Below, one piece after another: positions 8,379 through 28,571 of a stretch of DNA of 60,304 bases (position 1 is its first letter; every line of letters begins with the position of its first letter). The position numbers and the translations under genes were made by a program. The stretch is from contig JAHFCR010000011.1 in NCBI GenBank assembly GCA_023249405.1, forward strand, positions 12,481 through 72,784. The letters are read 5' to 3'. Origin of the DNA: Peptococcaceae bacterium (GTDB taxonomy: Bacteria; Bacillota; DSM-12270; Thermacetogeniales; Thermacetogeniaceae). The notes beneath the pieces are model-generated. The model ran no database searches. It saw only the letters and a list, made by a program, of their open reading frames with translations, and was not told the DNA's origin.

Positions 8379-9902
8379 ATGGGAGCAGTGTTGCCGATGG
8401 CTCATCGGATGCGTGCGCAGGGGCCTCATGTTTACCAGTATCGAGGTATTTTTCACGCCTCAGACTCCGGTAAATACTTTAGCTACCCCCTGAGCATTCC
8501 CAGTGGAACGCGGCGGGTGGAGGTCAGCCTGGCCTACGCCCACAACTCCAATAACAACGTGCTGGGAGTGCAGGTCTTTGACCGGAACGGCTTCCGGGCC
8601 CGGGGCCGGGCGCAAAAGGTCAAGGGGAACTGGGGCCACGTCGAGAGCGTCATTGACACCGGCTGCCGCAGCAGAGGCGCGGTGTCAGGGGAGATCGCTC
8701 CGGGAATCTGGACCTTAGAAATCGACACCTATTGCGTCAAAAATGATTGCATTTTTGAACTGGTGACCGAGATCTACCAGGGAGCAACCGCCAGTTCCAG
8801 GCAACAGGCCAGCGCCAGTGAGCAGCAGAGGGCTGGAGGATTCCAGGCGCCCAGCCGCCTCGATATGCAGCGCCCTCTCAGGCAACGGTCGGGCTGGTAC
8901 CGGGGCGACCTGCATGTACACTCGGAAGAAAGCGACGGCATCCTGGAAGTGCGGGATCTGATGCGCCTGGCAGTGATCAGGGAACTGGACTTTCTGGCCA
9001 TTACCGACCATAATGTGCACACCGCCTGGGAGCAATTGACCACGGAACTCTCAGAGTTCTGCCTGCCGCTCACGGGGATCGAATTATCAACTTACCAGGG
9101 CCATGGCAATGCCCTGGGAGTTCGGGGCTGGGTCGATTGGCGTCTGGGGCTGGGGGATTACGGAGTCAATGAGATGATCCGCCGGGTGCGGGAGTTGGGC
9201 GGCATCTTCTCCATCAACCACCCCCGCACCGGCAAACTGCCTACGGGCCATGCCTGCTGGCGGGCTGATGATGTGGACTACAACCTGGTGGATGCGATCG
9301 AAGTCTGGAACGCCCCTGTATTCAGCAACGGCACCGGGGCCAACCAGGAGTCGCGCCGTTTCTGGGACCAGCTTCTGAACCAGGGCTACCGGATCACCGG
9401 CATCGGGGGCAGCGATGCCCATTACATTGACGGCTCCCGTCAGCCGCTGGGAGTGCCGCTAACTTACGTCTACGCCCTAGCCCTGTCGCAGGCAGAGATC
9501 ATCGCCGGAATTAGAAAGGGGAGTGTCTTCATGACCGTCGGCCCTAAGATCTACTTCACGGCATCCAGCCAGTCCGGCGCCAAGGCCATGGTCGGTGAGT
9601 CGCTGCCCCTGAGCCAGTTCCGGGAGCAGGTCTGGCTGCACATCAACATCAAGGATGCGCCCCTGGGCTCCGAGGTCCGTTTGGTGAAAAACGGTGTGTC
9701 CTGTCTGTCGGAACGGGTCTCCCATGCCGGCCTGCTCTCCATCGCCTGGAGCGACGACGAGGCGCTCGGCGCTGCCGGTTCCAAAACCTGGTACCGGGTA
9801 GAACTGTACACCTCCAGCAAGGAATTTGCTCCCGGTGATGACGGCCTGCTCGCTATCACCAACCCGATCTACGTGGATATGGCGCCCGGTCCAACCGCCT
9901 AG
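8379..9902 (+). CDS. CehA/McbA-type PHP-domain metallohydrolase
   Basis: A 507-residue protein with GGAGG eight bases before its ATG. Residues 1-165 form a beta-rich N-terminal domain. A PHP metal-binding domain follows (about residues 175-390): GDLHVHSEESDG, AITDHN, GIELST, INHPRTG and GGSDAHY supply the usual His/Asp/Glu ligands. The last 110 residues form a second beta domain. The family includes carbaryl hydrolase CehA and phosphoesterases, so substrate is open. There is no signal peptide. The upstream Pho box suggests a phosphoesterase induced by phosphate starvation; that substrate class is an inference from regulation and neighbours. Confidence 0.85.
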   Translation: MGAVLPMAHRMRAQGPHVYQYRGIFHASDSGKYFSYPLSIPSGTRRVEVSLAYAHNSNNNVLGVQVFDRNGFRARGRAQKVKGNWGHVESVIDTGCRSRGAVSGEIAPGIWTLEIDTYCVKNDCIFELVTEIYQGATASSRQQASASEQQRAGGFQAPSRLDMQRPLRQRSGWYRGDLHVHSEESDGILEVRDLMRLAVIRELDFLAITDHNVHTAWEQLTTELSEFCLPLTGIELSTYQGHGNALGVRGWVDWRLGLGDYGVNEMIRRVRELGGIFSINHPRTGKLPTGHACWRADDVDYNLVDAIEVWNAPVFSNGTGANQESRRFWDQLLNQGYRITGIGGSDAHYIDGSRQPLGVPLTYVYALALSQAEIIAGIRKGSVFMTVGPKIYFTASSQSGAKAMVGESLPLSQFREQVWLHINIKDAPLGSEVRLVKNGVSCLSERVSHAGLLSIAWSDDEALGAAGSKTWYRVELYTSSKEFAPGDDGLLAITNPIYVDMAPGPTA

Positions 9903-13915: not shown

Positions 13916-15100
13916 TTACAGGGGCAGGTAATCCTTGGCTGCAATCGCCTGGCCGTCAGGGGAGAGGCAGTACTCGATGAAGGACTTGGCCAGCCCCGTG
14001 GGGTCGCCATTGGTGGCCAGCACGAACGGCCGGACGTAGGGATACTTGCCGCTCTTGGCGTTGCCGATGGTCGGATCAACACCGTCCAAAGGCATGGCCT
14101 TGATGGTATTATCCAAGTAACCCATGGAGACGAAACCGATGGCGTTGGGGTTGGATGCTACCGCCTGGCGGATCAGATCGGTGGAATTGTACTGCTTGGC
14201 GGTGGCCACCAGCTTGTTCTTGCCCAGGAACGACGAAGTGAAGAAATCCAGGGTGCCGGAACCGGCCTCCCGGGTATAGACCATAATCGGCAGATTCTGC
14301 CCATTAACGTGGACCCAATTTGTGATATTTCCGTCGAAAACGTCCTGCACCTGCTGCTTGGTCAGCTTGGCGATGGGGTTTTTCGGATTGACCACGATGA
14401 CGATGGCATCCTTGCAGATAGTCGTTCCCACCAGGTTCTTGGGGTCTTTGTCGGTCAGCGCCCGGGAGACGGAGCCGATATTGACCTTGCCGGCTGCCGC
14501 ATCGGCGACACCCACGCCGGAACCGCCGCCAGTGATGGTAATATTAACGCCCGGATACTTTGCCACAAAGGCGGTTTTCAGTTGCTCAGCCAGCGGCTGC
14601 ACAGAGGTAGAGCCGTCCATGACCAGGTTGCCCGACAGTGTGGTAGGCAGGGCGCCACCCTGGTTGGTCACGGCGCCATTGATGATCACCTGGCGCTGCC
14701 CGCCGTCCCAGTCGACTTGGGCGCCCAGGGACTCGCTTACAAAACGCAGGGGAACCACAGTATGCCCATTGACAATTGAGGCCGGAACGTCCAGATTATC
14801 TTTCTCATCACCGATGGTGGCAGTATTCTGGCCGATCACCAGGATCACGCTGGTGTCGCCCTTGACTCCGGTGACGGTCTGGGTGGATTCATCCCAGGAC
14901 ACATTGGCGCCGAGAGCCTCAAAGATCGCCCGGAAAGGCACCAGCACCCGCCCACCCTGGATAAACGGAGCCGGATCGGCGGCCAGAGTTTTGCCGTTGA
15001 CGATAACGGAGATGTCGCCCGCTGCCTGAGCAAACGGAACTTGTCCGACAAGCAGGACCAGGGCCAGAAAAATACACAATAACAGAGACTTCCTCTTCAT
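13916..15100 (-). CDS. pstS: PstS phosphate-binding protein fused to a copper-amine-oxidase-type stalk domain
   Basis: A 394-residue exported protein. The signal peptide ends near AQA (residue 26) and there is no lipobox. Residues 29-145 match the copper amine oxidase N-terminal-like (stalk) domain, with GGRVLVPFRAIFEALGA and the repeat HTVVPLRFVSESLGAQVDW. Residues 155-394 are a PstS domain with MDGSTSVQPL, TITGGGSGVGV and the REAGSGTLDFF loop. Such stalk domains are common in exported proteins of Clostridia and may hold them at the cell wall. This is the first gene of the pst operon and follows a strong Pho box. Confidence 0.93.
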   Translation of the reverse strand: MKRKSLLLCIFLALVLLVGQVPFAQAAGDISVIVNGKTLAADPAPFIQGGRVLVPFRAIFEALGANVSWDESTQTVTGVKGDTSVILVIGQNTATIGDEKDNLDVPASIVNGHTVVPLRFVSESLGAQVDWDGGQRQVIINGAVTNQGGALPTTLSGNLVMDGSTSVQPLAEQLKTAFVAKYPGVNITITGGGSGVGVADAAAGKVNIGSVSRALTDKDPKNLVGTTICKDAIVIVVNPKNPIAKLTKQQVQDVFDGNITNWVHVNGQNLPIMVYTREAGSGTLDFFTSSFLGKNKLVATAKQYNSTDLIRQAVASNPNAIGFVSMGYLDNTIKAMPLDGVDPTIGNAKSGKYPYVRPFVLATNGDPTGLAKSFIEYCLSPDGQAIAAKDYLPL

Positions 15101-15229
15101 GATAACCCTCCTTGGATTTTTAAATCACGCCAGTAAGCAATCATAGCAAAAATGCAAAAACCCCTTTTTTGGGGAAACTAGCCCACTTTCCCCCCTTTGT
15201 CGCTTTTTCTAACTATCCATTTTCTTAAA

Positions 15230-15283
15230 AGTTTATAAGAATAATGTTGACTGCATATTGATTTTTGATTAAGTAATTGTAAA
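15230..15283 (-). promoter_or_regulatory. Pho box and promoter of the pst operon
   Basis: Read on the minus strand, the hexamers TTTACA (15283-15278), TTAATC (15272-15267), TCAATA (15261-15256) and TCAACA (15250-15245) stand at exact 11-base steps. Nine bases later comes TAAACT (15235-15230) as the -10. The predicted start of transcription is about 120 bases before pstS. Confidence 0.75.
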
Positions 15284-15360
15284 GTATTGCCTCAATCGGC
15301 TTAGCAATGGCTAGCGCCGCAGATAATGGTAATATAACCGCATAAAAACGCCCTGGGAGA

Positions 15361-15414
15361 TTAACAACAGATTAATCCAGGCTTTATAGAAAGTTAACAG
15401 ACCGTTGTTACACT
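15361..15414 (+). promoter_or_regulatory. Pho box and promoter of the DUF2334-GT4-GNAT-PHP operon
   Basis: TTAACA (15361), TTAATC (15372), TTTATA (15383) and TTAACA (15394) repeat every 11 bases, then nine bases, then TACACT (15409-15414). It points away from the pst operon, so the two Pho boxes form a divergent control region about 185 bases wide. The rest of the gap from 15101 to 15531 holds no gene. Confidence 0.75.
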
Positions 15415-15531
15415 ATATCAAGGAAGTGTTGGAAGTTCCCGTGTCCCGTGCCCGATGGTGTCGTACACGGTTTCAAAGCGCAGCGCATCGGCTCTTGTGC
15501 GCCCGCTCCTGCCTCCAACAGACGATGGGGG

Positions 15532-16278
15532 GTGAACGTTTTATATTACAATGTATCGCTGCATGATATCACCCCGGCCCATGAGCAAGAGGCGCGGGCA
15601 ATGCTCCACCTGTGCGAGGAGTGTGGAATCGCCAGGGGCACGCTATTGGTGATTCCCAATTTTCACGGCCGATACCCTCTGCAGCGCCGGCAACCAATCG
15701 TGCGCTGGCTGCAAGCGCTCGCACAGGACGGCTGGGAGATTGCCCTGCACGGACAGGAGCACCTGATGCCCGAGCCTGCCAGCCTGACGTTGCCCCAGCG
15801 CCTGATCGCCCATCACTACACCGACCATGAAGGAGAGTTCTATCTGCTGTCCGGGGAGGAGGCGCGGCGCCGTCTTGCCCGGGGGCTGTCCATACTAGCG
15901 GATGAATGCAGCCTGACACCCGCCGGTTTCGTGGCCCCTGCCTGGTTGCTGGGACGGTCAACATTGCAGGCTCTCGAGCAGTTGCCTTTCTCCTTTACCA
16001 CCACCTTGAATCAGGTCTATGATTTAAAAAACGGCCGCCGCCGGTTTGCCCCGGTGCAGGCCTTCAGCAGCCGCAGCCCTGGACGCAGGCTGGCATCGGC
16101 AATCTCCGGCTGGTCAGCCGGATATCTCTGGTGGGGGTTGCCCTTCGTACGGGTTGCCCTGCACCCTTCCGATCTGGCCTCTCCCCTGATTATGCAGACC
16201 GCTAAACGGCTTCTGAAGTACCTGTCCAGCCAGCGCAGCTGCCTGTCGCTTGATGAATACCTGAAACTGCAGGCGTAA
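15532..16278 (+). CDS. DUF2334/polysaccharide deacetylase-like protein
   Basis: A protein of about 248 residues resembling DUF2334 carbohydrate-esterase-4-like deacetylases. The N-terminal SLHDITPAH supplies the HD motif, ALHGQEH the second His motif and GFVAPAW the substrate-side loop. No signal peptide is seen, so the substrate may be a cytosolic or lipid-linked sugar. The GTG at 15532 is chosen because family homology begins there; a GTG at 15448 would add 28 residues of unlikely composition. It is the first gene after a Pho box and is followed by a glycosyltransferase 49 bases later. Confidence 0.72.
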   Translation: MNVLYYNVSLHDITPAHEQEARAMLHLCEECGIARGTLLVIPNFHGRYPLQRRQPIVRWLQALAQDGWEIALHGQEHLMPEPASLTLPQRLIAHHYTDHEGEFYLLSGEEARRRLARGLSILADECSLTPAGFVAPAWLLGRSTLQALEQLPFSFTTTLNQVYDLKNGRRRFAPVQAFSSRSPGRRLASAISGWSAGYLWWGLPFVRVALHPSDLASPLIMQTAKRLLKYLSSQRSCLSLDEYLKLQA

Positions 16279-16327
16279 GGCCTGAATGTCCCATCATCAG
16301 ATAACTCCTGATGGAAGAAGGGAAAGC

Positions 16328-17683
16328 ATGCGAGTCTGTGACCTGACAATCTTCTACCACCAGCAGAGCGGGGGCGTACGCACCTACATTCACGAGAAGA
16401 TCTGCTACCTGGCCCGTCACCGGAACGGCAATTCACACCTGGTAATCGTTCCCGGAGAGAAAGACCTGGAACTGCGCCGGCAGCACAGCCGGATCCAGTT
16501 CCTCAAAGGGCCGGTGGTGCCTTTCGCCCGTCCCTACCGGGTGATCCTGCAGCTGGTCAAGGCCTACCGCCTGGTGCTGTCCTTCCAACCGGACGTGATC
16601 GAGGTCGGTTGCCCCTATATCTTTCCCTGGCTCGCCTTCCTGGTGCGGTGGCGCATTCGCCGGTCAGACGCCGGGCAGTCATCAGCAGGCGCAGTTGGGA
16701 AGTCCGGCCAAGGCGTGCACCCGGGTTGCCGGGTGGTCGGTTTCTACCACAGCGATTTCCCAAGCGCCTACCTCCGCCTTCATAACAAGCTGCTCGGGGA
16801 GATTGTGGAGATCCTGTTGCGGCAGTTGGCTTTTAGATATATACGCCTGGTGTACCGGAGGATGGACCTGACCATTGCTCCATCGCCGGCAATTGCCGCC
16901 TTTCTAAGCAGCTACGGGATCGAGCGGGTAGAGACCATCCCCCTGGGGGTAGATACTGTCAAGTTTCACCCACAGCACCGGCAACCTTGGGTGCGCAACC
17001 GGCTCGGCCTGTGTGAAGGACAGCTTTTGCTCCTGTTCGTGGGGCGCTTCTCCCAGGAGAAGGGTTTGACCTATCTGTTCCGGTCTTTTGAGTTGCTGTC
17101 CCGGCAGGAGCCGGGGCGCTTTCATCTGCTGTTCGTGGGGGCCGGTCCGCTCGGACCAGAACTGCAGTTCTGGTCCGCCGCCAGAAGCGACGTCACGGTC
17201 TGGAACTACCTCCAGGGGCAAGCTCTGGCAGAAGTGTATGCCTCCGCCGATATCTTCGTCAGTCCGGGCACTGCTGAGACTTTCGGGCTCACCCTCCTGG
17301 AAGCCCAGGCATCAGGTTTGCCGGTAATCGCCGGATCCTCCGGAGCCGCCCCGGAGGTAGTGGCGCCCGCTGCCGGGGCGTTGATCGACCCCCGGAACGC
17401 TGAATTGATGGCAGCAGCGGTATCCCTCATGGCCAGGCAGGATCTGAGGGCGCTGGGATGGAAGGCGCGCCGCTTCGTGGAGGAACGCTACAGTTGGAAC
17501 TGTACTTTTGACAGGCTGTTCCGTGCATACGAGCAATTGTCAACCCAGGGGGAGGTAAATCAAAATGGCCGTAAGGGTTCCGGAAATAATTCGCGAAAGA
17601 CAGTGCCGCATCAGGCCTTTCAGCCCGGAGGACCGCCCTGCGGTAAGAGAGATCTGCGCCGCCACCGGGCTGCTGGGCAATGA
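16328..17683 (+). CDS. GT4 family glycosyltransferase
   Basis: A GT-B fold glycosyltransferase of about 450 residues. The N-terminal domain has FYHQQSGGVRTY and an acceptor-side FYHSDFPSAYLR. The C-terminal nucleotide-sugar domain has LLFVGRFSQEKGL and the E-x7-E region TAETFGLTLLEAQASG. The sequence resembles MgtA/SQD2-type enzymes that glycosylate diacylglycerol or mannolipids, but the acceptor cannot be fixed. AAGAAGGG precedes the ATG at 16328. The last 40 residues are Arg/Gly/Pro-rich, run 119 bases into the next gene in another frame, and are unlike any GT4 end, so a stop lost by frameshift is possible. Confidence 0.83.
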   Translation: MRVCDLTIFYHQQSGGVRTYIHEKICYLARHRNGNSHLVIVPGEKDLELRRQHSRIQFLKGPVVPFARPYRVILQLVKAYRLVLSFQPDVIEVGCPYIFPWLAFLVRWRIRRSDAGQSSAGAVGKSGQGVHPGCRVVGFYHSDFPSAYLRLHNKLLGEIVEILLRQLAFRYIRLVYRRMDLTIAPSPAIAAFLSSYGIERVETIPLGVDTVKFHPQHRQPWVRNRLGLCEGQLLLLFVGRFSQEKGLTYLFRSFELLSRQEPGRFHLLFVGAGPLGPELQFWSAARSDVTVWNYLQGQALAEVYASADIFVSPGTAETFGLTLLEAQASGLPVIAGSSGAAPEVVAPAAGALIDPRNAELMAAAVSLMARQDLRALGWKARRFVEERYSWNCTFDRLFRAYEQLSTQGEVNQNGRKGSGNNSRKTVPHQAFQPGGPPCGKRDLRRHRAAGQ

Positions 17684-18347
17684 CATCCGGCCCCTGTTTC
17701 CGCACCCGGACTTCTTTGTGGACCTGTTCACATCCTACTACACAGACCTGGAGCCGGACTCCTGCCTGGTGGCCGAAGCCCCCGGCGCTTCGGGCCAGCC
17801 GGAGGTGGTCGGCTACCTGCTGGGATGCACGAACCCGCAGTGCTACAGTCGCCGCCAGCCGTTACTGCTGGCCAGGATCGCCTGCCAAGCGCTCCAGTTG
17901 CTGCTGCTGGGGGAATTCGGCGGCGGCGCCCGAAGCTACATCTGGTGGTCTATCCGGCGCGGCTGGCGGGAGATGCCCCGGACGCCTGCCGGCGGCGCTC
18001 ACTTTCATTGCAATTGCTTAAAGGAATGGCGCAACCGTAGAGCCGCCCTCCCGCTGATAGAAGCCTTCCTGGACTTGCTGCGCCGGGAGCACCCGGAGTT
18101 GCGGGCTGTGTGGGGCCAGATGACCACCTACGGCAAACGCCGTACCGCGGCGTCATTCCAGCGTTTCGGCTGGCAGTTCTATGACCGGGTGCGCCTCACC
18201 AAGTATGATGGGATCTTCAAGACCCGGGGGCGGGATGAGCCCATGCGGCAGTCAGGGATTACCGTCGGTCAGTCAATCAGGGAATTGGAATATTCCCGCT
18301 GCCGCCAGCCGGAGATCTACCTGACCACTATCTATCGCCGGCTGTGA
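17565..18347 (+). CDS. GNAT-like N-acetyltransferase
   Basis: A 260-residue protein with a strong GGGGAGG site eight bases before its ATG. The N-terminus CRIRPFSPEDRPAVREIC is the standard GNAT opening, and VGYLLGCTN marks the central strand. A Leu-rich insert (about residues 100-135) separates this from the C-terminal half (HFHCNCLKEWRNRRAALPLIEAF...) that would carry the acyl-CoA binding part. Donor and acceptor are unknown. The setting between glycosyltransferase and PHP genes under a Pho box suggests modification of a sugar or lipid head group. Confidence 0.68.
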   Translation: MAVRVPEIIRERQCRIRPFSPEDRPAVREICAATGLLGNDIRPLFPHPDFFVDLFTSYYTDLEPDSCLVAEAPGASGQPEVVGYLLGCTNPQCYSRRQPLLLARIACQALQLLLLGEFGGGARSYIWWSIRRGWREMPRTPAGGAHFHCNCLKEWRNRRAALPLIEAFLDLLRREHPELRAVWGQMTTYGKRRTAASFQRFGWQFYDRVRLTKYDGIFKTRGRDEPMRQSGITVGQSIRELEYSRCRQPEIYLTTIYRRL

Positions 18348-18465
18348 ACCCGGAAGCGTTTGTACAGGTATCGGCCAGCCTCGATTATGGCAACCTAAAC
18401 GGTATAACGAACGTTATCAAATTCAGCCGCAGGCAATTAAAACCATCATGAAATGGGGTCTATAT

Positions 18466-19224
18466 ATGGCCACTACTAATGAAACAACGGCGACGATCCT
18501 GGCGGAACTGCACTGCCATACCCAGTTCTTTGGCTGGCAACACTTTTCCCGGCGCCGTCTGAACAGCTTTTTGAGCCGCGCCCGGTGCCTGGGCGTAAAA
18601 GCCCTGGCCTTTACCGAACACGCCAACATCAAGAACTATTGGAAGCTGTTTGCCTTTCTAGAGGATAGCGCCTGGCAGCGGGAAGGAGTGACCATTCTCA
18701 CCGGTGCCGAGATCACCGTGCAAGAAGGCGGAGACATTTTAGTGTACGGCTCACCGTCAGCCTTCAAGGAGCTGCCGGATCGCCTGGGAGGTTGGCCTGC
18801 AGGCCGGGTCCGCCCACCCCTGGAGCGGCTGCTGGAAGCAGCCGAGGCTCTGGATCTGATGAAGGTCGGCGCCCACCCGTTACGGCCTCGCCAGAGCCTG
18901 CTCAATATACCGCGGGAACTATTGCGCCGGCTGGACGCCCTGGAGATCAACGCCAGGGAGACCGGCAGAAACCGGGAGGTCACCGCTCTGGCGGCAGAGT
19001 TGCGCCTGCCGTTGGTGGCAGGCAGCGACGCCCATTTCAGTTGGCACCTGGGGCGAGTGCTCAACCGCCTGCCCGGCTGGGTAAAGGACATGCCCACCCT
19101 GCGCCAGGCGGTCAGAAGCGGCCAGGTAGAGATCCTGCGCCATAACGAGATAGTCTGCCCGCGCCAGACTGCCGATCTGGACGCTCCGTCCAACTATGCC
19201 CGACAACCGGTATTAAATAAATGA
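18466..19224 (+). CDS. PHP-domain metal-dependent phosphoesterase-like protein
   Basis: A protein of about 252 residues built on a single PHP fold. Metal ligands are visible as AELHCHTQ (HxH), FTEHANI, TGAEITV, VGAHPLRP and AGSDAHFS. PHP proteins hydrolyse phosphate esters or act as nucleases. Here a phosphomonoesterase or diesterase is plausible because the gene is last in a Pho-box operon. The ATG at 18466 has GGGG about nine bases upstream; an ATG at 18448 has no ribosome site. It meets the SQD2-like gene convergently after 55 bases, with no clear terminator. Confidence 0.78.
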   Translation: MATTNETTATILAELHCHTQFFGWQHFSRRRLNSFLSRARCLGVKALAFTEHANIKNYWKLFAFLEDSAWQREGVTILTGAEITVQEGGDILVYGSPSAFKELPDRLGGWPAGRVRPPLERLLEAAEALDLMKVGAHPLRPRQSLLNIPRELLRRLDALEINARETGRNREVTALAAELRLPLVAGSDAHFSWHLGRVLNRLPGWVKDMPTLRQAVRSGQVEILRHNEIVCPRQTADLDAPSNYARQPVLNK

Positions 19225-19279
19225 TAGGGGAGATCGGTCCTATCCAGCTTGGGAGAAAATTGCGCCAGATATCTTCCGG

Positions 19280-20434
19280 CTACACTGCCTGTTGGAGAGG
19301 ATTCTTGGCCAGCGCCACGGACTGATAGCCCTCAAGCACGGGGGTGAGAGCGTTGGTCCAGGAGCGGGTCTCGGCATGGCGGCGGGCGGCAACGCTCATC
19401 TGCCGGCGCAGCAAGTCATTGTCCAAGAGAGCGCAGATTGCTGCAGCCATTCCCTGCGAGCGTTGGGGCGGAAAATCCAGGCCGTTGCTTCCGGGCCTCA
19501 GGTTCTCGGTGATCCCCCCACTCAGAGAGGCCACCACCGGCAGTCCCGAGGCCATCGCCTCCAGCACCACGTTGCCGTAGGTTTCGGTGGTGGAGGGAAA
19601 GACAAACAGGTCGCAGGAGGCGTAGAGGCGGCTCAACTCCTCACCCTGCAGCATGCCCAGGGGCAGCACCCCGGCTGGCGGCTGGCGGCGGATCACCGGC
19701 CCCAGGGGGCCGTCTCCGGCCAAGATCAGCTTTGCCTCCGGGTAGGTGTGGAGCACCTGTTCCAGGGCGGCGAATGCCACATCCAGGTTCTTTTCGGGTG
19801 CCAGCCGGCCTACATAGAGCAATAGAGGCCCGGAACCCAGCCGGCGGCGAAGCAGATCATCCCGCTTATGCGGGTGGAAAAGAGTGGTGTCCACTCCTCT
19901 TCCCCAGAATTGCAAGTTGGGAATTCCTCGTTCTGCCAACATCTGCCCGGTGCTCCGCGACGGATAGAAGTTGAGGCGGCACTGGCGGTGGAACCAGACC
20001 AGATAGCGCCAGGTGGCCTCGGACAGAAACGGTAAACGGTAGTAAGCCGCATAGCGGGAGATATCCGTGTGGTAGGATGAGACCACGGGCACACCGAAAC
20101 GACAGGCGCAATAAAGACCCGCCAAGCCCATGGAATACTCCGTCACCAGATGCACCAGATCCGGCTTGAAGCCAGTGAAGGCTGCATAGAAGCGGGGGCT
20201 GAGCGGCATGCTCAGCCGGCATTCAGCATAGAAGGGGAGCGGGATCCCATGGTACAGGTAAGCCTTGCGCCGCGGTTGCAAACCAGGTAACGGCTGCGTC
20301 GGATCAATCGGGGCAAAGACCGCCGTCTGACAACCCTGTTCCTCTAAAAACCCCAGCAGCCGGTCGACAGTACGACTGACCCCGTTCACCTGGTACAGGC
20401 AGGCATCAGTGAAAAAGGCGATGCGCAGGCTCAC
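19280..20434 (-). CDS. SQD2/MgtA-like GT4 glycosyltransferase (candidate glucuronosyl-diacylglycerol synthase)
   Basis: A 384-residue GT-B enzyme. The N-terminus RIAFFTDACLYQVNGVSRTV, then LVTEYSMGLAG, YHTDISRYAAYY and GRGVDTTLFHP are the pattern of the SQD2/SqdX/MgtA branch, which transfers sulfoquinovose, glucuronate or mannose to diacylglycerol. The nucleotide-sugar site is TTETYGNVVLEAMASG. Its start overlaps the end of the UDP-glucose dehydrogenase gene by four bases (ATGA), and phospholipase C lies upstream of that. This context suggests that it uses UDP-glucuronate on diacylglycerol released from phospholipid. The acceptor and donor remain inferred. Confidence 0.85.
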   Translation of the reverse strand: MSLRIAFFTDACLYQVNGVSRTVDRLLGFLEEQGCQTAVFAPIDPTQPLPGLQPRRKAYLYHGIPLPFYAECRLSMPLSPRFYAAFTGFKPDLVHLVTEYSMGLAGLYCACRFGVPVVSSYHTDISRYAAYYRLPFLSEATWRYLVWFHRQCRLNFYPSRSTGQMLAERGIPNLQFWGRGVDTTLFHPHKRDDLLRRRLGSGPLLLYVGRLAPEKNLDVAFAALEQVLHTYPEAKLILAGDGPLGPVIRRQPPAGVLPLGMLQGEELSRLYASCDLFVFPSTTETYGNVVLEAMASGLPVVASLSGGITENLRPGSNGLDFPPQRSQGMAAAICALLDNDLLRRQMSVAARRHAETRSWTNALTPVLEGYQSVALAKNPLQQAV

Positions 20435-21801
20435 GATAAGGCCACCCCCATCTCTGCACTGCCGGTTCTAGCTTGAAGCCGCTTCAGGGAATAACGCTTC
20501 TGCCCAATTCCGGCATAGCTGAAACCCGCAGCCTCTACGACAGACCCATCGAGGCAGTTGCGCCCATCCAGCACCAGCGGCCTCTTTACTTGGTGGCGCA
20601 GACGGTTCCAGTTCAGGTGAGCAAACTCCGGCCATTCGGTCAGCAAGATAATGGCCTCGGACCGGGCCGCCGCCTCGTAGGAGTCATGAGCGATGGCCAC
20701 TGCAGGAAATTGCTGCTTGACCAGCCAACAGGCCTTTACCTGAGGATCGTAGGCAGTGACCTGAGCGCCGCGACCGGTCAGTTCGGCCAGTACCGCCAGA
20801 GCCGGGGCATCCCGGGTATCGTCGGTCCCCGGTTTGTAGGTAAGGCCCCACAGGCAGACCCGCACTCCCTGCAGATCACCGTAAAGCTCACTCAGGAAAC
20901 GGGGCAGCAGCAGGTTCTGGTTATGATTGACAGCTGCCACCGCAGTGATCATGGGCAGCTGCAGTTGGGCCTCCTGGCCGGTGGACAGCAGGGCATGGAG
21001 ATCCTTGGGAAAACAGGAGCCTCCGAAGCCGATCCCCGCTCTCAGGAAGGCATGCCCGATCCGGGCATCCATCCCCATTCCCCGGGCAACCGCCCCGATA
21101 TCGGCTCCCACCTGCTCACAGAGGCAGGCGATCTCGTTGATAAAGGAGATCTTGGCAGCCAGGAAAGTGTTGGCGGCATACTTGATCATCTCTGCACTGC
21201 GCCGGTCTACCAGGAGTACCGGGCGGCCCAGCGGGGCGTAGATCTTCATCAACAGGTGAGCGGCATCCTCCTCTTCGGTGCCGATGATGATCCGGTCGGC
21301 GTTGTAGGTATCGTAGAGGGCCGTCCCCTGGCGCAAAAATTCGGGATTAGAGATCACCTGCCAGGAGCGGGAGGCGGCATTCTTCTGAAAAAAGTGGTGC
21401 AGTGCATCTCCGGTGCCGATCGGCACCGTGCTCTTGACCACTGCCAGCCGGCGCCCGGCGTTGGAACGGTACGGCAACTGGCAGAGAGCATCCCGGACTG
21501 CATAAAAAGAGGCCATGTCCGGGGAGCCGTCAGCCTGGGAGGGAGTGCCAACGGCGATGAAGACCGCTTCGGCTTTCTCGGCTGCGGCTCCGATATCATC
21601 GGTAAAAGTCAGCCGCCCATCCCGGAAATTATCTTTAACAAGGCTGGGGAGACCTTCCTCGTAGATCGGGGTCTCCCCTCTTCGCAACACCGCCAGCTTG
21701 GCAGGATGATTTTCCACCACCGAGACCTGATGCCCCAACCCGGCAATCACAGCGGCGGTCACCAATCCCACATAACCCGCCCCAACAACACAGATACGCA
21801 A
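20431..21801 (-). CDS. ugd: UDP-glucose 6-dehydrogenase
   Basis: A 456-residue UDP-glucose/GDP-mannose dehydrogenase. The Rossmann motif GAGYVGLVTA (residues 7-16), the IAVGTPSQADGSPDM loop, the central NEIACLCEQVGADI helix and the catalytic-Cys motif GIGFGGSCFPKDLHAL (Cys near 260) are all present, as is GLTYKPGTDDTRDAP. The product would be UDP-glucuronate. The gene is translationally coupled to the SQD2-like glycosyltransferase, which identifies the likely consumer. The phospholipase C gene ends 167 bases upstream on the same strand. Uronate-containing wall polymers (teichuronic acid type) are the main alternative use. Confidence 0.93.
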   Translation of the reverse strand: MRICVVGAGYVGLVTAAVIAGLGHQVSVVENHPAKLAVLRRGETPIYEEGLPSLVKDNFRDGRLTFTDDIGAAAEKAEAVFIAVGTPSQADGSPDMASFYAVRDALCQLPYRSNAGRRLAVVKSTVPIGTGDALHHFFQKNAASRSWQVISNPEFLRQGTALYDTYNADRIIIGTEEEDAAHLLMKIYAPLGRPVLLVDRRSAEMIKYAANTFLAAKISFINEIACLCEQVGADIGAVARGMGMDARIGHAFLRAGIGFGGSCFPKDLHALLSTGQEAQLQLPMITAVAAVNHNQNLLLPRFLSELYGDLQGVRVCLWGLTYKPGTDDTRDAPALAVLAELTGRGAQVTAYDPQVKACWLVKQQFPAVAIAHDSYEAAARSEAIILLTEWPEFAHLNWNRLRHQVKRPLVLDGRNCLDGSVVEAAGFSYAGIGQKRYSLKRLQARTGSAEMGVALS

Positions 21802-21968
21802 ATCCGGTCACCCTTTCCTGGTATGTCTTCTATTCATCCGCTTTTCCGCTTGGCTGGCAAGATAACCCTCTATCACCAACTGGCATTTTTTCACTGAAGA
21901 TTGATTTGCAAAACTGACCGGCTGACTTTGCCCGCTGCCGGCCCCATTGCTAAGGAGGTCCGGATAAC

Positions 21969-22727
21969 CTAGGCGACCCAGCCTGGAAAAACCGCAGCCC
22001 GGGTAGAGGCGCCGACTTTTTCCAGGAAGTAGATCCAGAACCCCGCCGTGCTCCGTTGAGCAAGGCCCAGAAGTTCGGTGGTGGCACGCTCATATTCGAC
22101 AAAGTGATCCGGCTTGAACACCAGACTCAGGCAATCGTAAGCTCTTTGGCTGTTAAAGATCACCCACTCTTCAGGACTGGAGACATTGCCCCGGTAGAGA
22201 CCGCCGCTGAGCACCGGAAAGCGCTCCCGTTCCTGCTGCACCCAGAGTTCGAAGCTGCCATGCCCACCTCCCACCAGCCCGTGAACATGCTGAGGTACGC
22301 AGACATCCTGCACCAGGTGGCTGGCCAACCCGATCAGATACAGTGCCCTGCCGGCATCGCCCTGGCGCCAGTACCGTACCGCCAGGTTGAAGAAACGGCC
22401 GCAGGCAGCTGCGGCCGAAACCCCTCCCCACAGCCCGCGTCCAGTGCTGGGGTTGTAATAGTGGCTGATGCATCCCAGGCCGCCGTCGGCCCTGCAGACA
22501 CCGGCATTGAGGTAGACCAGCGACCGCTTGATAAAGTCGCCCTGGGCCTTCCAACCGTCCTTCTGCAAAATAGTGGCCGCCTGACGGTTGATAAAGATAT
22601 GAGTGGCAGCAAAACCGAGAGTGGCTCCCAGCGTGGGGCGGCAGGTAGTTGCCGCATAAGAACCGGCGTTGCGCAGGCAGGCATTGATGGTGCGCAGCAA
22701 TAGATGTGGCTTCCCTTGCAATGGCAC
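21969..22727 (-). CDS. Zinc-dependent phospholipase C (alpha-toxin/P1-nuclease fold)
   Basis: A protein of about 252 residues of the zinc-dependent phospholipase C family. Ligand motifs occur in the family order: ATHIFINRQA, CISHYYNP, HLVQDVCVPQHVH and GHGSFELWVQQER, the last matching the HxxFExxxxE element of clostridial alpha-toxin. It lacks the C-terminal C2-like domain and any clear signal peptide, so it may act on the inner leaflet. A GTG at 22727 is preferred (GAGGGGGG at about eight bases); an ATG at 22751 would leave almost no 5' leader from the predicted promoter. It follows a strong Pho box and heads the ugd-glycosyltransferase series. Confidence 0.85.
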   Translation of the reverse strand: MPLQGKPHLLLRTINACLRNAGSYAATTCRPTLGATLGFAATHIFINRQAATILQKDGWKAQGDFIKRSLVYLNAGVCRADGGLGCISHYYNPSTGRGLWGGVSAAAACGRFFNLAVRYWRQGDAGRALYLIGLASHLVQDVCVPQHVHGLVGGGHGSFELWVQQERERFPVLSGGLYRGNVSSPEEWVIFNSQRAYDCLSLVFKPDHFVEYERATTELLGLAQRSTAGFWIYFLEKVGASTRAAVFPGWVA

Positions 22728-22762
22728 CGCCAGACCCCCCTCTTGACACATTTGGTGGTTTA

Positions 22763-22816
22763 AGTATAAATAAGAAGTGTTAAAGGGGCGTGAATCAGAA
22801 GTAAAGTTTTATTTAA
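22763..22816 (-). promoter_or_regulatory. Pho box and promoter of the phospholipase C operon
   Basis: On the minus strand TTAAAT (22816-22811), TTTACT (22805-22800), TTCACG (22794-22789) and TTAACA (22783-22778) repeat every 11 bases. Nine bases later stands TATACT (22768-22763). Geometry is identical to the promoters of pst and of the deacetylase operon. Confidence 0.72.
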
Positions 22817-22901
22817 CCTTGTTGATAATAAGGCCTAACGCCCCCTCCGACCGCTTTCCGAAGCAGGGGCATTGGGGATCGGACAAAATAGCTGCTAAAC
22901 G

Positions 22902-22955
22902 ACAAGAAAAAGTTTACAATAAGATAATACGAATTAAATCTTGAGCGTATATGAT
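22902..22955 (+). promoter_or_regulatory. Weak Pho-box-like promoter of the UgtP-like gene
   Basis: Hexamers in the same 11-base phase are ACAAGA (22902), TTTACA (22913), ATAATA (22924) and TAAATC (22935), followed after nine bases by TATGAT (22950-22955). Only the second hexamer is a full match, so this is the least certain of the six; the -10 and its spacing fit well. Confidence 0.4.
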
Positions 22956-22994
22956 TATAGTGAAACCCATCGTTCCCGAACTGGGGGTATCATA

Positions 22995-24158
22995 ATGCTT
23001 GACGTACTGATATTTTCAGCCAGCTACGGCGGAGGACACCGCCAGGCATCGCTGGCGCTGGCCAAGGCGCTGGGATCTTGCCAGGACAAGCTGCAGATCG
23101 AAATCGTCGATTTCATGGAGTTGATCAGCCCCGCCATCAACAAAGTCACCAGGTTCACCTATACCAAATCAATCCGCAACACCCCGACCCTCTACGGATA
23201 TTTTTACAAGGTAACGGATAACCTGAAACTGGACAACCTGATGGAAAAACAACTCACCAACTTCGGGCTGCAAAAGATCCTGGATTTCCTGGTCGACCGA
23301 TCGCCACAGATGGTTGTCGCCACCTACCCTATGGTGGCCGGCATCGTCTCCTATATCAAGCGTATGGGGCAGTTAAACGCCCCGCTGGTCACGGTGATCA
23401 CGGACAACACCGCTCACTGCCAGTGGGTGCATCCGGAAACCGATCTCTACCTGGTAGCCTCTGAACAGGTCCGCCAGGGCTTGCTCTACCAGGGAGTGCC
23501 CGACTCGAAGATCGCCGTCACCGGCATCCCTATCGACCCCAAGTTTGCCCGGGTGCCGCCGCGAGAGACCCTGCTGGCGAAGTTCGGGCTCAGTCCAGAT
23601 AGCCCGGTGATCCTGGTGATGACTGGGGCTGAGGGGATGTTGCGAGGAATCCCGGCGCTTTGCCAGGTATTGGACGAGTTTCCCCTGCCTTTACAGGTTT
23701 TGGTGGTGACCGGCAAAGACAAGGGCCTCTATCAGCTCCTGAGAGAACAAGCAGGCAAGTTCAGTAAACCGCTGAAGGTCTACCAGTTCGTCGACAACGT
23801 CGAGGAGTTCATGGCGGTATCCAACCTGCTGATCACCAAGGCGGGAGGCCTGACCATCTCCGAGGCCCTGGCCCTGGGGTTGCCAATGCTGATCTACCAC
23901 CCGATTCCCGGACAGGAGATGGAAAACACCCAGTACCTGGTGAATGCGGGGGCGGCGCTCCCAGTTTACGACCTGAAGGAACTGAAGGTAAAGCTGCACC
24001 TCGTCTTCACCCAGAAGCATTTCTACGAGGCGCTGTGTTTTAGGGCCCGAGCCGCGGGGCGCCCAGAAGCCGCCAAATTGGCTGCCGAGATCCTGATCTC
24101 GATGCTGGCCGGCGAATATGCCGGCAGTATACCGGCGATCAGGGCCAACACCGTATAA
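22995..24158 (+). CDS. MGDG synthase/UgtP-like diacylglycerol glycosyltransferase
   Basis: A 387-residue GT28-type enzyme. The N-terminal MGDG-synthase domain shows DVLIFSASYGGGHRQAS, DFMELISP and VATYPMVAGI; the C-terminal domain shows VILVMTGAEGMLRGIP, the VDNVEEFMAVSNLLITKAGGLT donor site and PMLIYHPIPGQEMENT. This is the family of B. subtilis UgtP and plant MGDG synthases, which add hexose to diacylglycerol at the membrane surface. The ATG at 22995 follows GGGGG at about eight bases; upstream sequence in frame from a TTG at 22941 looks non-coding. It is followed by an MFS carrier, recalling the ypfP-ltaA pair of staphylococci. Confidence 0.9.
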   Translation: MLDVLIFSASYGGGHRQASLALAKALGSCQDKLQIEIVDFMELISPAINKVTRFTYTKSIRNTPTLYGYFYKVTDNLKLDNLMEKQLTNFGLQKILDFLVDRSPQMVVATYPMVAGIVSYIKRMGQLNAPLVTVITDNTAHCQWVHPETDLYLVASEQVRQGLLYQGVPDSKIAVTGIPIDPKFARVPPRETLLAKFGLSPDSPVILVMTGAEGMLRGIPALCQVLDEFPLPLQVLVVTGKDKGLYQLLREQAGKFSKPLKVYQFVDNVEEFMAVSNLLITKAGGLTISEALALGLPMLIYHPIPGQEMENTQYLVNAGAALPVYDLKELKVKLHLVFTQKHFYEALCFRARAAGRPEAAKLAAEILISMLAGEYAGSIPAIRANTV

Positions 24159-24237
24159 GTGATCGGCATCCGTCATTTGTTGTTTTGACTAATGGCCAGC
24201 GACCAATCGCTAACGACCATGTTAAGGGACTGTTGGC

Positions 24238-25440
24238 ATGCGCAATGGATTTCGAGAGGCCTACTACCGGCGCTTTCACTGGATCCTTCTCAGCCTCATC
24301 GGTTCGGTCGACTTTGTGCGGGGCGCTCTATTCATCGCCCTGATTCCCATTTACGTGCCCGAACAGTTGAGGGCCACTGTTTTCCTGAGCGGCGCCATCA
24401 TCTCCGCCATGTACGGGGCCGACACCATTTTCAAGCCTACCGCCGGCTGGCTGGTGGACTACTTCGGGCCGCGGGCTACCCTGCTGATCAGCCTGCCCTG
24501 TGCCCTGCTCGGCCTGAGCTTCTTTTTGTGGAGCAAGTCCGGGGCCATCCTGATCCTGGGAGCGATCCTCTACGGCCTGGGCTGTGCTCCGGTCTGGCCG
24601 GCGGTGGTGAGCACCCTGGTGGAGTATTCCCCCACCGGAGAGAAGGCCAAGACCCTTAGCTCCATCTACGTGGTCTGGCTGCTCGGAATGGGCTCCGGGG
24701 CAGTGCTGATCAATCTGGTCTACCATCTGGGCCCGAAATTGCTGATCGCGATCCTGGTAGGAGTCTTCTGCATCCCGCTCATCCTCGCCCTCAATATTCG
24801 CAAGTGGATCTCCAGGCGTCGCACCACCAAGGAAGCCAGCGCCGGACGCCACCTGTTGCGGATGACCCGGGAGATCTGGAACTTCCGGGTGCTATTGCCC
24901 GGGGCCTTCACCCAGACCCTGGCTCTGGGCATGCTGTTGCCCCTGCTGCAACCCTTCTGTAAACAGGTTTACGGCCTCAACCAGCGAGCTTACGGAATAC
25001 TCATGCTGGCGGGAGGCCTCATTACCATCGCCATGCTGGTGCCGATCGGAAAGATGGTTGACCGGTTTGGATACCGCACGTTTCTGGTCGTGGGCTTCTT
25101 TCTGGGCGGCACGCTGCTGGTAGCCATCAACCACTATCCCAACCACCTGCTGATCTATCCCTATGCCATACTGCTGGGAATCTCCTATGCCTTCATCCTG
25201 CCAGCCTGGAACGGCCTGCTTGCCAACCGGCTGCCCAGCGAGGTGCGGGCCAGCCTCTATTCCATCATCATGAGCATCGAGGGTCTGGGCGTCGCCGCAG
25301 GTCCGGTGATCGGCGGCAAATTGGGAGAACTCTTCAGCTACTCGTTCACCTTTGGCGTTTCCGCAACGGCGCTGTTTATCATGGGCGCCTTCTACCTGAT
25401 CCTGCTGCGCCGCCCACAGGGCGGAAGGGCAGGCAATTAA
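24238..25440 (+). CDS. MFS transporter (possible glycolipid flippase)
   Basis: A 400-residue carrier with about twelve helices. The MFS loop 2-3 motif appears as GWLVDYFGPRATLL, and a second copy as GKMVDRFGYRTFLV in the C-terminal half. A basic central loop (IRKWISRRRTT) separates the halves. It begins 79 bases after the UgtP-like gene and is probably co-transcribed. In staphylococci LtaA, an MFS flippase for diglucosyl-diacylglycerol, follows the same kind of glycosyltransferase; that analogy is the basis for the flippase suggestion. A drug or sugar exporter remains possible. Confidence 0.82.
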   Translation: MRNGFREAYYRRFHWILLSLIGSVDFVRGALFIALIPIYVPEQLRATVFLSGAIISAMYGADTIFKPTAGWLVDYFGPRATLLISLPCALLGLSFFLWSKSGAILILGAILYGLGCAPVWPAVVSTLVEYSPTGEKAKTLSSIYVVWLLGMGSGAVLINLVYHLGPKLLIAILVGVFCIPLILALNIRKWISRRRTTKEASAGRHLLRMTREIWNFRVLLPGAFTQTLALGMLLPLLQPFCKQVYGLNQRAYGILMLAGGLITIAMLVPIGKMVDRFGYRTFLVVGFFLGGTLLVAINHYPNHLLIYPYAILLGISYAFILPAWNGLLANRLPSEVRASLYSIIMSIEGLGVAAGPVIGGKLGELFSYSFTFGVSATALFIMGAFYLILLRRPQGGRAGN

Positions 25441-25543
25441 AAATTACAGCGCCCTCAAGTTCGCCCAGAATGCGGTCCAGGTTGCGCGAGCCTGTATTTT
25501 TGCGCGCTTTCAATCCGGATGGATCAACTCCGGCAACGGGAAC

Positions 25544-26104
25544 CTAGCTCAGGAAGGGCAGGGTCAGGTTGATGGTCAAGAGGAAACAGAGATAGGCGAT
25601 CCCGAAGCCGACCAGGACATCGGTGGGATAGTGAAAACCCAGGTAGATCCGCGAGATGGCCACCAGGAAAGCCAGGGCGAACAGCACCCCGGCGACGGCG
25701 CCCGACACCGGCAGACTGGCCGCCAAAATGAAGGCCATCACAAAGGCGGTGGCGGTATGCCCGGAGGGGAAGGAGTACTTGCAGGATGGCGGGTGTATGG
25801 CAATAGCGTCCTCCAGGGCGCGATACGGGCGCGGCCGGTTGACCAGGCGCTTGATGGTGTGCACGACGATCTGGCTGGAGACCAGTCCCATCGCCAGGTT
25901 GATCCCGGCGTTTCTGGTCAGAGGATGCCTGGAGAATAGAAAAGTTGCCAACAGGGCCAGGGTGAACCCCACCGACCCCAGGTTTGTGATCGCCCGCATC
26001 AGGATATCCAGCAATGAGCAGTGCATCTTGTGGTTCAGCGCATAGAAAACAGTCACGTCGCCCCGCTGCAGGTAGGCATTCATCGCTTGCAAATCCCCTC
26101 GCAT
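25544..26104 (-). CDS. PAP2 family membrane phosphatase
   Basis: A 186-residue integral membrane protein with the complete acid-phosphatase signature: KRLVNRPRPY (motif 1), FPSGHTATAF (motif 2) and SRIYLGFHYPTDVLVG (motif 3, catalytic His). Five to six helices are expected, with the active site on the outer face. Substrates in this family are phosphatidate, phosphatidylglycerophosphate or undecaprenyl pyrophosphate. Phosphatidate would give diacylglycerol for the neighbouring glycosyltransferases. The start is ambiguous: ATG at 26104 has no ribosome site, ATG at 26083 follows GAGGGG at 11 bases. No Pho box was found upstream. Confidence 0.88.
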   Translation of the reverse strand: MRGDLQAMNAYLQRGDVTVFYALNHKMHCSLLDILMRAITNLGSVGFTLALLATFLFSRHPLTRNAGINLAMGLVSSQIVVHTIKRLVNRPRPYRALEDAIAIHPPSCKYSFPSGHTATAFVMAFILAASLPVSGAVAGVLFALAFLVAISRIYLGFHYPTDVLVGFGIAYLCFLLTINLTLPFLS

Positions 26105-26246
26105 CTCAATTTAAGCTCAACTGCCCCTCCGGCATCATCAGCCTGGCGCCAAGGCAGCATGGACAACTCCAAAACAGTATATCCTGGCTATTGTATCAGA
26201 AAACTACCTGCACTTATATAAAAAATAAATGCCCAATATTGCGCCC

Positions 26247-28571
26247 CTATAAAGAAAAGGTAATTTCTTGTAAATCTTTGTTTGCTGAATTGCTTCGGAG
26301 ATCACAGGCAAAGGTGCTGCCGGGAATGGACTTTACGTATTTCTTGAGTTCCGCCGCCGTTTCAGACACCTCCAGGCAACTCCTGAAACTGCGCCGCTCA
26401 TTGGTGACCACCGCCAGGGAGATGGATACCAGGGGAAAACGCTGGCTGATACCGCGGCGATCGCAGACTTCGATAAAACCGTTCGTCCGGTCCTCTTTCC
26501 GGTACAGACCGGGTATTTCCGCGTCAAACATCTCGATCGTATCCCTGCATAGCGGCTGAACTCTGTCGGGTGTGGTCACTATGACAAAATCATCTCCCCC
26601 AATATGTCCCAGAAAAGCCTCACCCGGACACACCCGTTTGATAGCCTGTTGTAGTACCCGGGCGGTCATAGCCAGTACCTGATCGCCGCGTTCAAAACCA
26701 TAGTAATCATTATAGGCTTTAAAATCGTCCAGGTCGCAATAGATCACTGCGAACTGCCCATCAGATTGCAGGCGTTCAGTAATCTCACTCTGGATGACCG
26801 GATTACCGGGGAGATTGGTCAGCGGATTGGCCGCCCGGGCCAGCTCCAACTGCTTCTGGGTGATCCCGCTAAGTAAATCCTGGACGGAAACTACCCCGCA
26901 GTAGGTATTGTCCCTGGTCAGGATCAGGTAATCATAAATTTTATCATTCGGCCTGCTCATGGCCAGTTGTGACGCCACCTCCAACGGAGTGCCGGCATCG
27001 ATGATCAGGGGGTTGGCATCCATCACTGTGGTGACCGGGCGGTCCATATAGAGGGAATAACCGTAACGGGTGCCCAGCTTCGCATACAGCTTCTCCCGCA
27101 TGATCAGCCCCACTACTTGCAGCTGCTGCGTGACTCCAATCCCCTGCAACTGGGGATTATGTTCAAACAATTGCACCACTTTTTTGGTCATGTCCGCAAT
27201 GTCGACCTCAACGCCCTGGCTGGCGATGGCGTTCACCGTGTGTTGGCCGAGCTTATGTTTGTATAGCTCTTTCTTCAGTTCTCCCAACACCTGCCGAACT
27301 TCTGCCACTGGCTGCGGCGGAGGAAAACCAGGTCTTGCCAAGTAATAGCCCTGCCCCAGCATGATCCCCAACTGGGCCAGAGACACCAGCTCTTCGCGGC
27401 TCTCGATCCCTTCGGCGACTACCTGGACATGGGCCTTCCGGGCAAAGGCCAGGAAGGTCTCGATCAGGGCCTGCAGCACCGGCTTGGCTTGAACGCCGCG
27501 CACCAGGGACATATCCAGCTTGATGAAGTCGGGCTGCAATTCGGCAATCGCCTTGAGACTGGAACAACCATTTCCAAAATCGTCGATGGCGATCAGAAAG
27601 CCCTGGTTGCGATAATGGTCCATGACCCTGCAAAAGGTCGGATAATCGTCGATGGCGGTGCCTTCGGTGATCTCAAAGACAATGTTTTCCGGAGTCAGGT
27701 TGTGTTTGTCAACAAATTTTTGGGTCACTCCGGCAGTAAAGCCGGGGTCATTGATAGTCTGGGGATTGATGTTCAAGAACAGTTTCTCATTGCGGCCCAG
27801 GTAAGACAATTGTTGTAAAGCCATCTCCCTGGTAACCCTCTCCAGCGGGTAGAGCATGCCCTTTTCAGCAGCAAAAGCAAATAACTGTGCCGGACCGGCG
27901 AAACCGCTTCCCTCGTCCGGGCGAGTCAGGGCCTCATAACCGAAGATATCACCCTCGGGAATGGTCACGACCGGCTGAAAAACACTGGTAAAATCCTGCT
28001 CCCGGATCAGCCGGCCCAATTGCCTCTGCAGAACCTGGTTATGAATGTCGGATTGAACTCCGGCACGGTCGCGGGCCTCTCTTAAAGCCCAGTAAACCGC
28101 CTGTTCCAGTGAACCCTGGCCCAGGTCGATCAGTCCAAAGCCGGAAGTAATCCGGATATCCCTGTCGGCAACAACTGTATCTGTCTCCATCATTTCCTCA
28201 ATTTTCTCTGTCAGGACTACGATGTAATTTTGCAAATGCTCCATGGTCAGATGAGAATCGGCGGCAATATAGAGACAGCACTCGCCATATCCAAAATTCT
28301 GTATGGCTATCGGCAAGCCTGATGGCAAACACAGCCGCGCTTTTTCCGAGATGATCCGCTCAATCGATTGCCAGTCCAGAAAACCTGTTTTACCGTTGCT
28401 TCCCGTTTTCGGCTGGCAGGAAGATGCGATTTTCAAATAGACCAGGCTCAACTGCAACTTTTGTTTATGAGCCTGGATCAACTGCCTAGCTACGCGCTTC
28501 GTCAGACAATAAAAGTAGTCATGCCGCCGTTTGCCCAAAACCGATGGCATTAAAGCATCAATGAAATCCAA
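26247..28571 (-). CDS. EAL-CBS-GGDEF cyclic-di-GMP protein
   Basis: A cytosolic protein of about 774 residues. The first 180 residues look like a degenerate GGDEF-type fold. The EAL domain (about 190-430) keeps the catalytic set: GYEALTRP, NINPQTI, FEITEGT, AIDDFGNGCSSL, FIKLDMS and AEGIES, so phosphodiesterase activity is likely. Two CBS motifs (about 480-600) could sense nucleotides. The C-terminal GGDEF domain (about 610-760) has GGDDF, a slightly atypical but possibly active site. No membrane segment or PAS domain is present. Start set at a TTG at 28571 behind AGGAGG (10 bases); the frame is open upstream to a TTG at 28619. Confidence 0.88.
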   Translation of the reverse strand: MDFIDALMPSVLGKRRHDYFYCLTKRVARQLIQAHKQKLQLSLVYLKIASSCQPKTGSNGKTGFLDWQSIERIISEKARLCLPSGLPIAIQNFGYGECCLYIAADSHLTMEHLQNYIVVLTEKIEEMMETDTVVADRDIRITSGFGLIDLGQGSLEQAVYWALREARDRAGVQSDIHNQVLQRQLGRLIREQDFTSVFQPVVTIPEGDIFGYEALTRPDEGSGFAGPAQLFAFAAEKGMLYPLERVTREMALQQLSYLGRNEKLFLNINPQTINDPGFTAGVTQKFVDKHNLTPENIVFEITEGTAIDDYPTFCRVMDHYRNQGFLIAIDDFGNGCSSLKAIAELQPDFIKLDMSLVRGVQAKPVLQALIETFLAFARKAHVQVVAEGIESREELVSLAQLGIMLGQGYYLARPGFPPPQPVAEVRQVLGELKKELYKHKLGQHTVNAIASQGVEVDIADMTKKVVQLFEHNPQLQGIGVTQQLQVVGLIMREKLYAKLGTRYGYSLYMDRPVTTVMDANPLIIDAGTPLEVASQLAMSRPNDKIYDYLILTRDNTYCGVVSVQDLLSGITQKQLELARAANPLTNLPGNPVIQSEITERLQSDGQFAVIYCDLDDFKAYNDYYGFERGDQVLAMTARVLQQAIKRVCPGEAFLGHIGGDDFVIVTTPDRVQPLCRDTIEMFDAEIPGLYRKEDRTNGFIEVCDRRGISQRFPLVSISLAVVTNERRSFRSCLEVSETAAELKKYVKSIPGSTFACDLRSNSANKDLQEITFSL

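Follow-up and report, generated by a model that had tools for sequence, protein, structure and literature searches.

The window analysed here, a stretch of 60,304 nucleotides from a Peptococcaceae bacterium, carries four co-directional open reading frames at 15532-19224, encoding a DUF2334, a GT4, a GNAT-fold and a PHP protein. Gene 1 (15532..16278, plus strand) encodes a NodB-like N-deacetylase of the DUF2334 family that resembles GpgD (Pfam PF10096, 2e-27; NCBIfam NF053788). Gene 2 (16328..17683, plus strand) encodes a GpgS-like GT4 glycosyltransferase, hereafter GT4A (NF053787), with an EX7E motif at residues 317-325. Gene 3 (17565..18347, plus strand) encodes a protein with a GNAT fold, of the type of SsHAT and the O-GlcNAcase pseudo-HAT, in which the acyl-CoA P-loop is missing, and gene 4 (18466..19224, plus strand) a metal-dependent hydrolase recognised by its PHP and PHP_C domains (Pfam) and its metal-site motifs. 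A longer open reading frame of gene 1 opens at 15448, but the GTG at 15532 is most likely the start, because the start of the relative in Desulfofundulus thermobenzoicus lies at nearly the same position. The last 119 nt of gene 2 are shared with gene 3; the homologous part of gene 2 stops near residue 405 and the remainder overlaps gene 3. These four reading frames and their coordinates agree with an earlier sequence-only reading, as does its statement that none has a signal peptide: no signal peptide or membrane helix was suggested for genes 1-4, in which the highest 19-residue Kyte-Doolittle mean is 0.96-1.59, with no helix-like hydrophobic stretch.

That reading ended with gene 4. A second GT4 glycosyltransferase, GT4B (19280..20434, minus strand), lies just beyond, convergent to genes 1-4, and its reading frame shares 4 nt with that of a UDP-glucose 6-dehydrogenase (20431..21801, minus strand; TIGR03026, 400 bits, top match TuaD), which likely supplies UDP-GlcA. 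These are followed by a zinc-dependent phospholipase C-like protein (21969..22751, minus strand; PF00882, 1e-12), while pstS (13916-15100) is divergent from gene 1. Rfam models revealed no RNA element within 15000-26200. As a side observation, an MGDG-synthase-like transferase, an LtaA-like MFS protein and a PAP2 phosphatase adjoin the module at 22941-26104, and the whole may form a wider island for lipid or teichoic-acid remodelling.

Upstream of gene 1 lies a PhoP-type Pho box (15361..15399, plus strand) of four TTAACA-like repeats, TTAACA-TTAATC-TTTATA-TTAACA, with an exact 11-bp period and a weaker fifth repeat, TTGTTA, at 15405. Its score of 21.9 is the best in the window, compared to a maximum of 19.0 among 100 whole-window shuffles, and periods from 8 to 14 other than 11 reach at most 17.6. 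Moreover, it is the sole zero-mismatch match to TTWAYA-N5-TTWAYM-N5-TTWAYA in the 3.57-Mb genome. The box thus exceeds chance, and tandem hexamers of the TT.A.A type with an 11-bp period upstream of an operon are the arrangement of a PhoP regulon member. The claim that these genes stand behind one of the best Pho boxes is therefore well founded, and Pho control of the operon, as predicted from the box, is supported. Elsewhere in the genome, positive controls for the box model were provided by an ABC-transporter operon (20.1) and by a second pst operon (contig C9, 454-3417), whose box of 22.7 is stronger than any in the window. The divergent pstS has a separate box (15245..15283, minus strand, score 19.9), and the phospholipase C-like gene has its own at 22816 (minus strand, 19.3).

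Other Pho-box-like repeats were observed in the same genome. In the window, they occur at 8249 (18.7), with a second PHP-domain protein of 507 aa (8379-9902) near the pst genes, and directly upstream of a PhoH/PIN protein (32290-33701; 19.2). Repeats at 28702 (minus strand) lie upstream of a gene for an EAL-GGDEF-CBS protein (26247-28713), which suggests, from the sequence, a possible link between c-di-GMP and phosphate. On contig C89 (2179-3079), a secreted-looking protein stands behind a very strong box (22.1).

The gene set recurs far outside its own lineage. Among close relatives, nothing was found for gene 3 (100 genomes) or gene 1 (60 genomes), and of 299 genomes sampled from the phylum only 1, that of the window itself, had a GpgD-like protein at E<1e-10; the set is therefore patchy and probably spread by transfer. 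It should be noted that an alignment query was needed to detect gene 3 relatives in contigs: a single-sequence scan of genome contigs with gene 3 found nothing, and the matches from tblastn against plasmids were all short, to GNATs of Streptomyces and Deinococcus. In D. thermobenzoicus, one contig ends with the DUF2334 (43% identity) and GT4A (49%) genes, and a relative of GT4B (46%) lies divergent to them. A further contig opens within that GT4A gene (58%) and goes on to the GNAT (50%) and PHP (39%) genes; phospholipase C (36%) and UDP-glucose dehydrogenase (43%) follow farther on. As the contigs overlap by 14 nt at these ends, inside the GT4 gene, the order DUF2334-GT4-GNAT-PHP is repeated. 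In Limnochordaceae, a PHP-GT4B fusion, GT4A (41%) and the GNAT stand side by side; no clear DUF2334 protein was found there.

Among 289 sampled Verrucomicrobiota genomes, the GNAT was detected in 23 at E<1e-20, 16 of which reached E<1e-69. All of these 16 had a GpgD-like DUF2334 protein at E<1e-44, versus none of 20 GNAT-negative genomes, which were the top of the listing rather than lineage-matched and included two with weak matches. For the co-occurrence, Fisher's test gives 1e-10, ignoring the close kinship of several of the 16 genomes. The GNAT and DUF2334 genes are neighbours in 11 of the 16, and six have an operon GT4A-GNAT-DUF2334-(PHP-GT4B fusion); in others the set is split into GT4A-GNAT and DUF2334-PHP-GT4B. 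One genome encodes GT4A and the GNAT in a single open reading frame, PHP-GT4B fusions are numerous, and these fusions point to two pairs, GT4A with the GNAT and PHP with GT4B. An 821-aa GNAT fusion (locus L118) was rejected, because the N-terminal region resembles a stop-to-stop artefact of high-GC sequence. The gene set is thus a real conserved module spanning very distant bacteria. The proposal that the four genes act as one functional set is supported by the repeated order in D. thermobenzoicus; separate occurrence of the genes in relatives was looked for, and distant relatives keep them together. All four are conserved, but four is an incomplete count, since GT4B is a fifth member.

Pho control is less widespread than the module. 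In the D. thermobenzoicus intergenic region from which the module genes diverge, a candidate Pho box faces GT4B (19.7 versus a shuffle maximum of 17.8), a weaker candidate on the strand facing DUF2334 (16.5) is inside the shuffle range, and the UDP-glucose dehydrogenase has a marginal box (17.7 versus 17.4). No Pho box was found for the module copies of Limnochordaceae or Verrucomicrobiota; in the latter, Gram-negative Pho boxes matched at best ≤11 of 14 positions. Predicted Pho control is therefore a trait of the Bacillota copies (the window and, more weakly, D. thermobenzoicus) and does not always accompany the gene set.

For each of genes 1 and 2, the best-matching family is an enzyme of one published pathway. 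Gene 1 has as its top NCBIfam model the GlcNAc-PG deacetylase GpgD (NF053788; 158.8 bits against a cut-off of 280), and it keeps the conserved SLHD Asp and LHG...H His residues. Gene 2 is matched over its full length by the GlcNAc-PG synthase GpgS (NF053787; 290 bits against a cut-off of 480), the next family reaching 100 bits. Their relatives likewise score best as GpgD (152-196 bits for module relatives) and GpgS. In Pseudomonas aeruginosa, GpgS is necessary for GlcNAc-PG and GpgD deacetylates it, and gpgSDF in Escherichia coli yields both GlcNAc-PG and GlcN-PG (PMC12713373). GlcNAc transfer followed by deacetylation, as the sequence-only reading had proposed, therefore has a published precedent that supports the chemistry, with scores below both cut-offs. 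The first two steps are a variant of GpgSD chemistry. Since the cut-offs are missed, the genes do not qualify as members of GpgSDF, and the acceptor, and even the donor, may therefore differ. Both systems have adjacent genes for a GT4 and a DUF2334/COG3233 deacetylase without membrane helices, but in the window the gene order is reversed, a Pho box and three extra conserved parts (GNAT, PHP and second GT4) are present, and no GpgF-type flippase occurs in the operon, the only PF03706 protein of the genome being on contig C59.

Two other systems invite comparison. HexSDF of Clostridioides difficile, which makes aminohexosyl-hexosyl-diradylglycerol, shares the logic of N-acetylhexosamine transfer and then deacetylation on a glycolipid, but there the transferase HexS is MGDG-synthase-like, HexD carries a polysaccharide deacetylase annotation, a flippase is present as HexF, and HexRK is the regulator (PMC10128005); with a GT4 as gene 2 and a DUF2334 protein as gene 1, the operon does not match this combination. 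In Desulfovibrio alaskensis, an Agt-type transferase makes glycolipids under phosphate limitation (PMC5193443), and the phospholipase C, UDP-glucose dehydrogenase and MGDG-synthase-like neighbours in the window recall such Pho-induced remodelling. However, the D. alaskensis-type glycolipids (MGDG and glucuronosyl-DAG) contain no hexosamine, and no deacetylase, GNAT or PHP part is described (PMC5193443).

Gene 3 has no Pfam match. Its closest relative of solved structure by sequence is SsHAT (PDB 4bmh, 6.8e-13), and the folds nearest to its AlphaFold2 model (pLDDT 83) are the three PDB entries 4bmh (SsHAT), 3zj0 (OgAT) and 6r45 (the HAT-like domain of O-GlcNAcase), which places it in the SsHAT / OGA-HAT-like fold group. 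The P-loop position reads RNRRAA rather than Q/R-x-x-G-x-G/A, the form expected of an active GNAT N-acyltransferase, a loss shared by the pseudo-HAT of human O-GlcNAcase. The acyl-CoA P-loop is missing in 19 of 20 module GNATs, gene 3 included, a count that takes in copies with GT4A or DUF2334 at another place in the genome or unchecked; the Limnochordaceae copy keeps it as R-A-A-G-A-G. In contrast, it is present in 11 of 12 stand-alone relatives, SsHAT among them. The lone exception is a deltaproteobacterial copy (locus L029, 6398-7159) beside LpxB-like and GT2-like genes, possibly a lipid A-related cousin. In a tree, the module GNATs form one group beside the stand-alone ones (support 89/89).

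The same loop is atypical in O-GlcNAcase, and when that of OgAT was changed to resemble it, acetyl-CoA binding was lost (PMC3919268). Given this result and the P-loop loss, simple re-acylation by gene 3 is unlikely, and the re-acylation step of the sequence-only reading is disfavoured. Gene 3 also differs from O-GlcNAcase in that it is not fused to a glycoside hydrolase and has a GlcNAc-type transferase and a deacetylase as its genetic partners. Since glucosamine N-acetyltransferase activity has been described for one GNAT (PMC4680927), recognition of a GlcN or GlcNAc head group by gene 3 is a reasonable guess, but no more than a guess.

Gene 4 has the metal motifs of a PHP hydrolase (HCH 16-18, TEH 50-52, GAE 80-82, AHP and SDAH), and the folds nearest to its model (pLDDT 72) are PsfC (7rty), EndoQ and RNase AM. 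Pairwise BLAST gave no link between the PHP proteins of the window and of Limnochordaceae, and their link rests on Pfam PHP_C and the motifs. GT4B shares 35% identity with the GT4 portion of the PHP-GT4 fusion in Limnochordaceae, and its relatives are fused to a PHP domain in both Limnochordaceae and Verrucomicrobiota.

Taken as a whole, we give roughly even odds that a PhoP-activated operon here supplies the greater part of a conserved module of five parts for an amino-sugar glycolipid, each reaction of which we infer. The probable function of the module is to link an amino sugar to a lipid of the membrane, and the product is most likely a GlcN-containing glycolipid made under phosphate starvation. 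GT4A would transfer GlcNAc from UDP-GlcNAc to a membrane lipid, which may be phosphatidylglycerol or diacylglycerol from the neighbouring phospholipase C; diacylglycerol from this Pho-boxed enzyme would suit a phosphate-sparing lipid. The DUF2334 protein would then remove the acetyl group to leave a cationic glucosaminyl head group, to which GT4B may add a second sugar, probably GlcA by way of the adjacent UDP-glucose dehydrogenase. Gene 3, as a partner of GT4A that lacks the usual acyl-CoA binding, would most likely be a pseudo-enzyme that binds the GlcNAc/GlcN head group, or else use another donor, and gene 4, a predicted phosphoesterase acting with GT4B, perhaps strips phosphate from the GT4B acceptor. 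Counting against this model are the lack of a flippase within the operon, of a clear DUF2334 protein in Limnochordaceae and of a Pho box in Limnochordaceae and Verrucomicrobiota. More tentatively, the five-part pathway of distant phyla may have been recruited to phosphate starvation in Bacillota to build a disaccharide amino-sugar lipid, with the GNAT, a bacterial relative of the O-GlcNAcase pseudo-HAT, acting as a pseudo-acetyltransferase that recognises GlcNAc/GlcN and controls it or presents it to a GlcNAc transferase.

The sequence-only reading had proposed a phosphate-free lipid or polymer, whereas the characterised product of GpgS is a phospholipid (PMC12713373). Genes 1 and 2 might be no more than a diverged GpgS/GpgD pair whose product is glucosaminyl-phosphatidylglycerol, a phospholipid of altered charge, with genes 3, 4 and GT4B accessory or unrelated to the product. 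The family matches and the GlcN-PG made by E. coli expressing gpgSDF (PMC12713373) speak for this, but both scores are far below the cut-offs, the other three parts recur with genes 1 and 2 across several phyla, fusions included, and a phospholipid is of no obvious use to a Pho operon; we hold it unlikely. That the GNAT re-acylates the deacetylated amino sugar to an N-acylated glycolipid seems very unlikely to us: its fold, the retained second His of HxH (a candidate catalytic residue in SsHAT), the P-loop of the Limnochordaceae copy and the known glucosamine N-acetyltransferase (PMC4680927) favour such a step, against which stand the loss of the P-loop in 19 of 20 module members versus its presence in 11 of 12 stand-alone relatives and the OgAT loop result (PMC3919268).

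In phosphate-limited Bacillus, teichuronic acid replaces teichoic acid, and this, together with the TuaD-like dehydrogenase and the nearby LtaA-like MFS and PAP2 proteins, would fit a module that makes or tailors a cell-surface polymer (teichuronic-acid- or capsule-like) or its lipid-linked precursor rather than a bulk membrane lipid. However, no polymerase, Wzx/Wzy or priming transferase occurs within the stretch examined and GT4A is GpgS-like, not TuaC-like (290 versus 71 bits), which makes this quite unlikely. The mycothiol pathway uses a GT4 (MshA), a phosphatase, a deacetylase and a GNAT (MshD), and the same four reaction types are united here, with PHP as the phosphatase. A soluble GlcN compound made by such logic is nevertheless highly improbable, given that gene 2 falls far short of the MshA model (85.6 bits versus a cut-off of 462.5), the deacetylase is DUF2334 rather than LmbE, the GNAT lacks the CoA loop, and the cluster has a second GT4 and no Cys ligase.

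The sequence-only reading had held that these genes belong to no known pathway. This does not apply to the GT4/DUF2334 pair, whose counterpart is GpgS/GpgD (PMC12713373), but it stands for the five-part set: in the literature searched, with incomplete coverage, the set, its two fusion pairings and a P-loop-less GNAT within it were not found, no description of a PHP-GT4 module was found, and DUF2334 is named in a single paper. Two of the five module parts have no known role in an amino-sugar lipid pathway. If the glycolipid reading is true, environmental bacteria have an enlarged form of the newly found glucosaminyl-lipid pathway, and amino-sugar lipids become tied to phosphate starvation. Moreover, bacterial relatives of the O-GlcNAcase pseudo-HAT, whose role is unsettled, would be placed in a genetic context, that of GlcNAc transfer and deacetylation, which allows their function to be tested. 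Elsewhere in the window, two NAGPA (phosphodiester glycosidase) proteins are encoded close together at 40306-41430 and 42399-43394, with an open reading frame between them.
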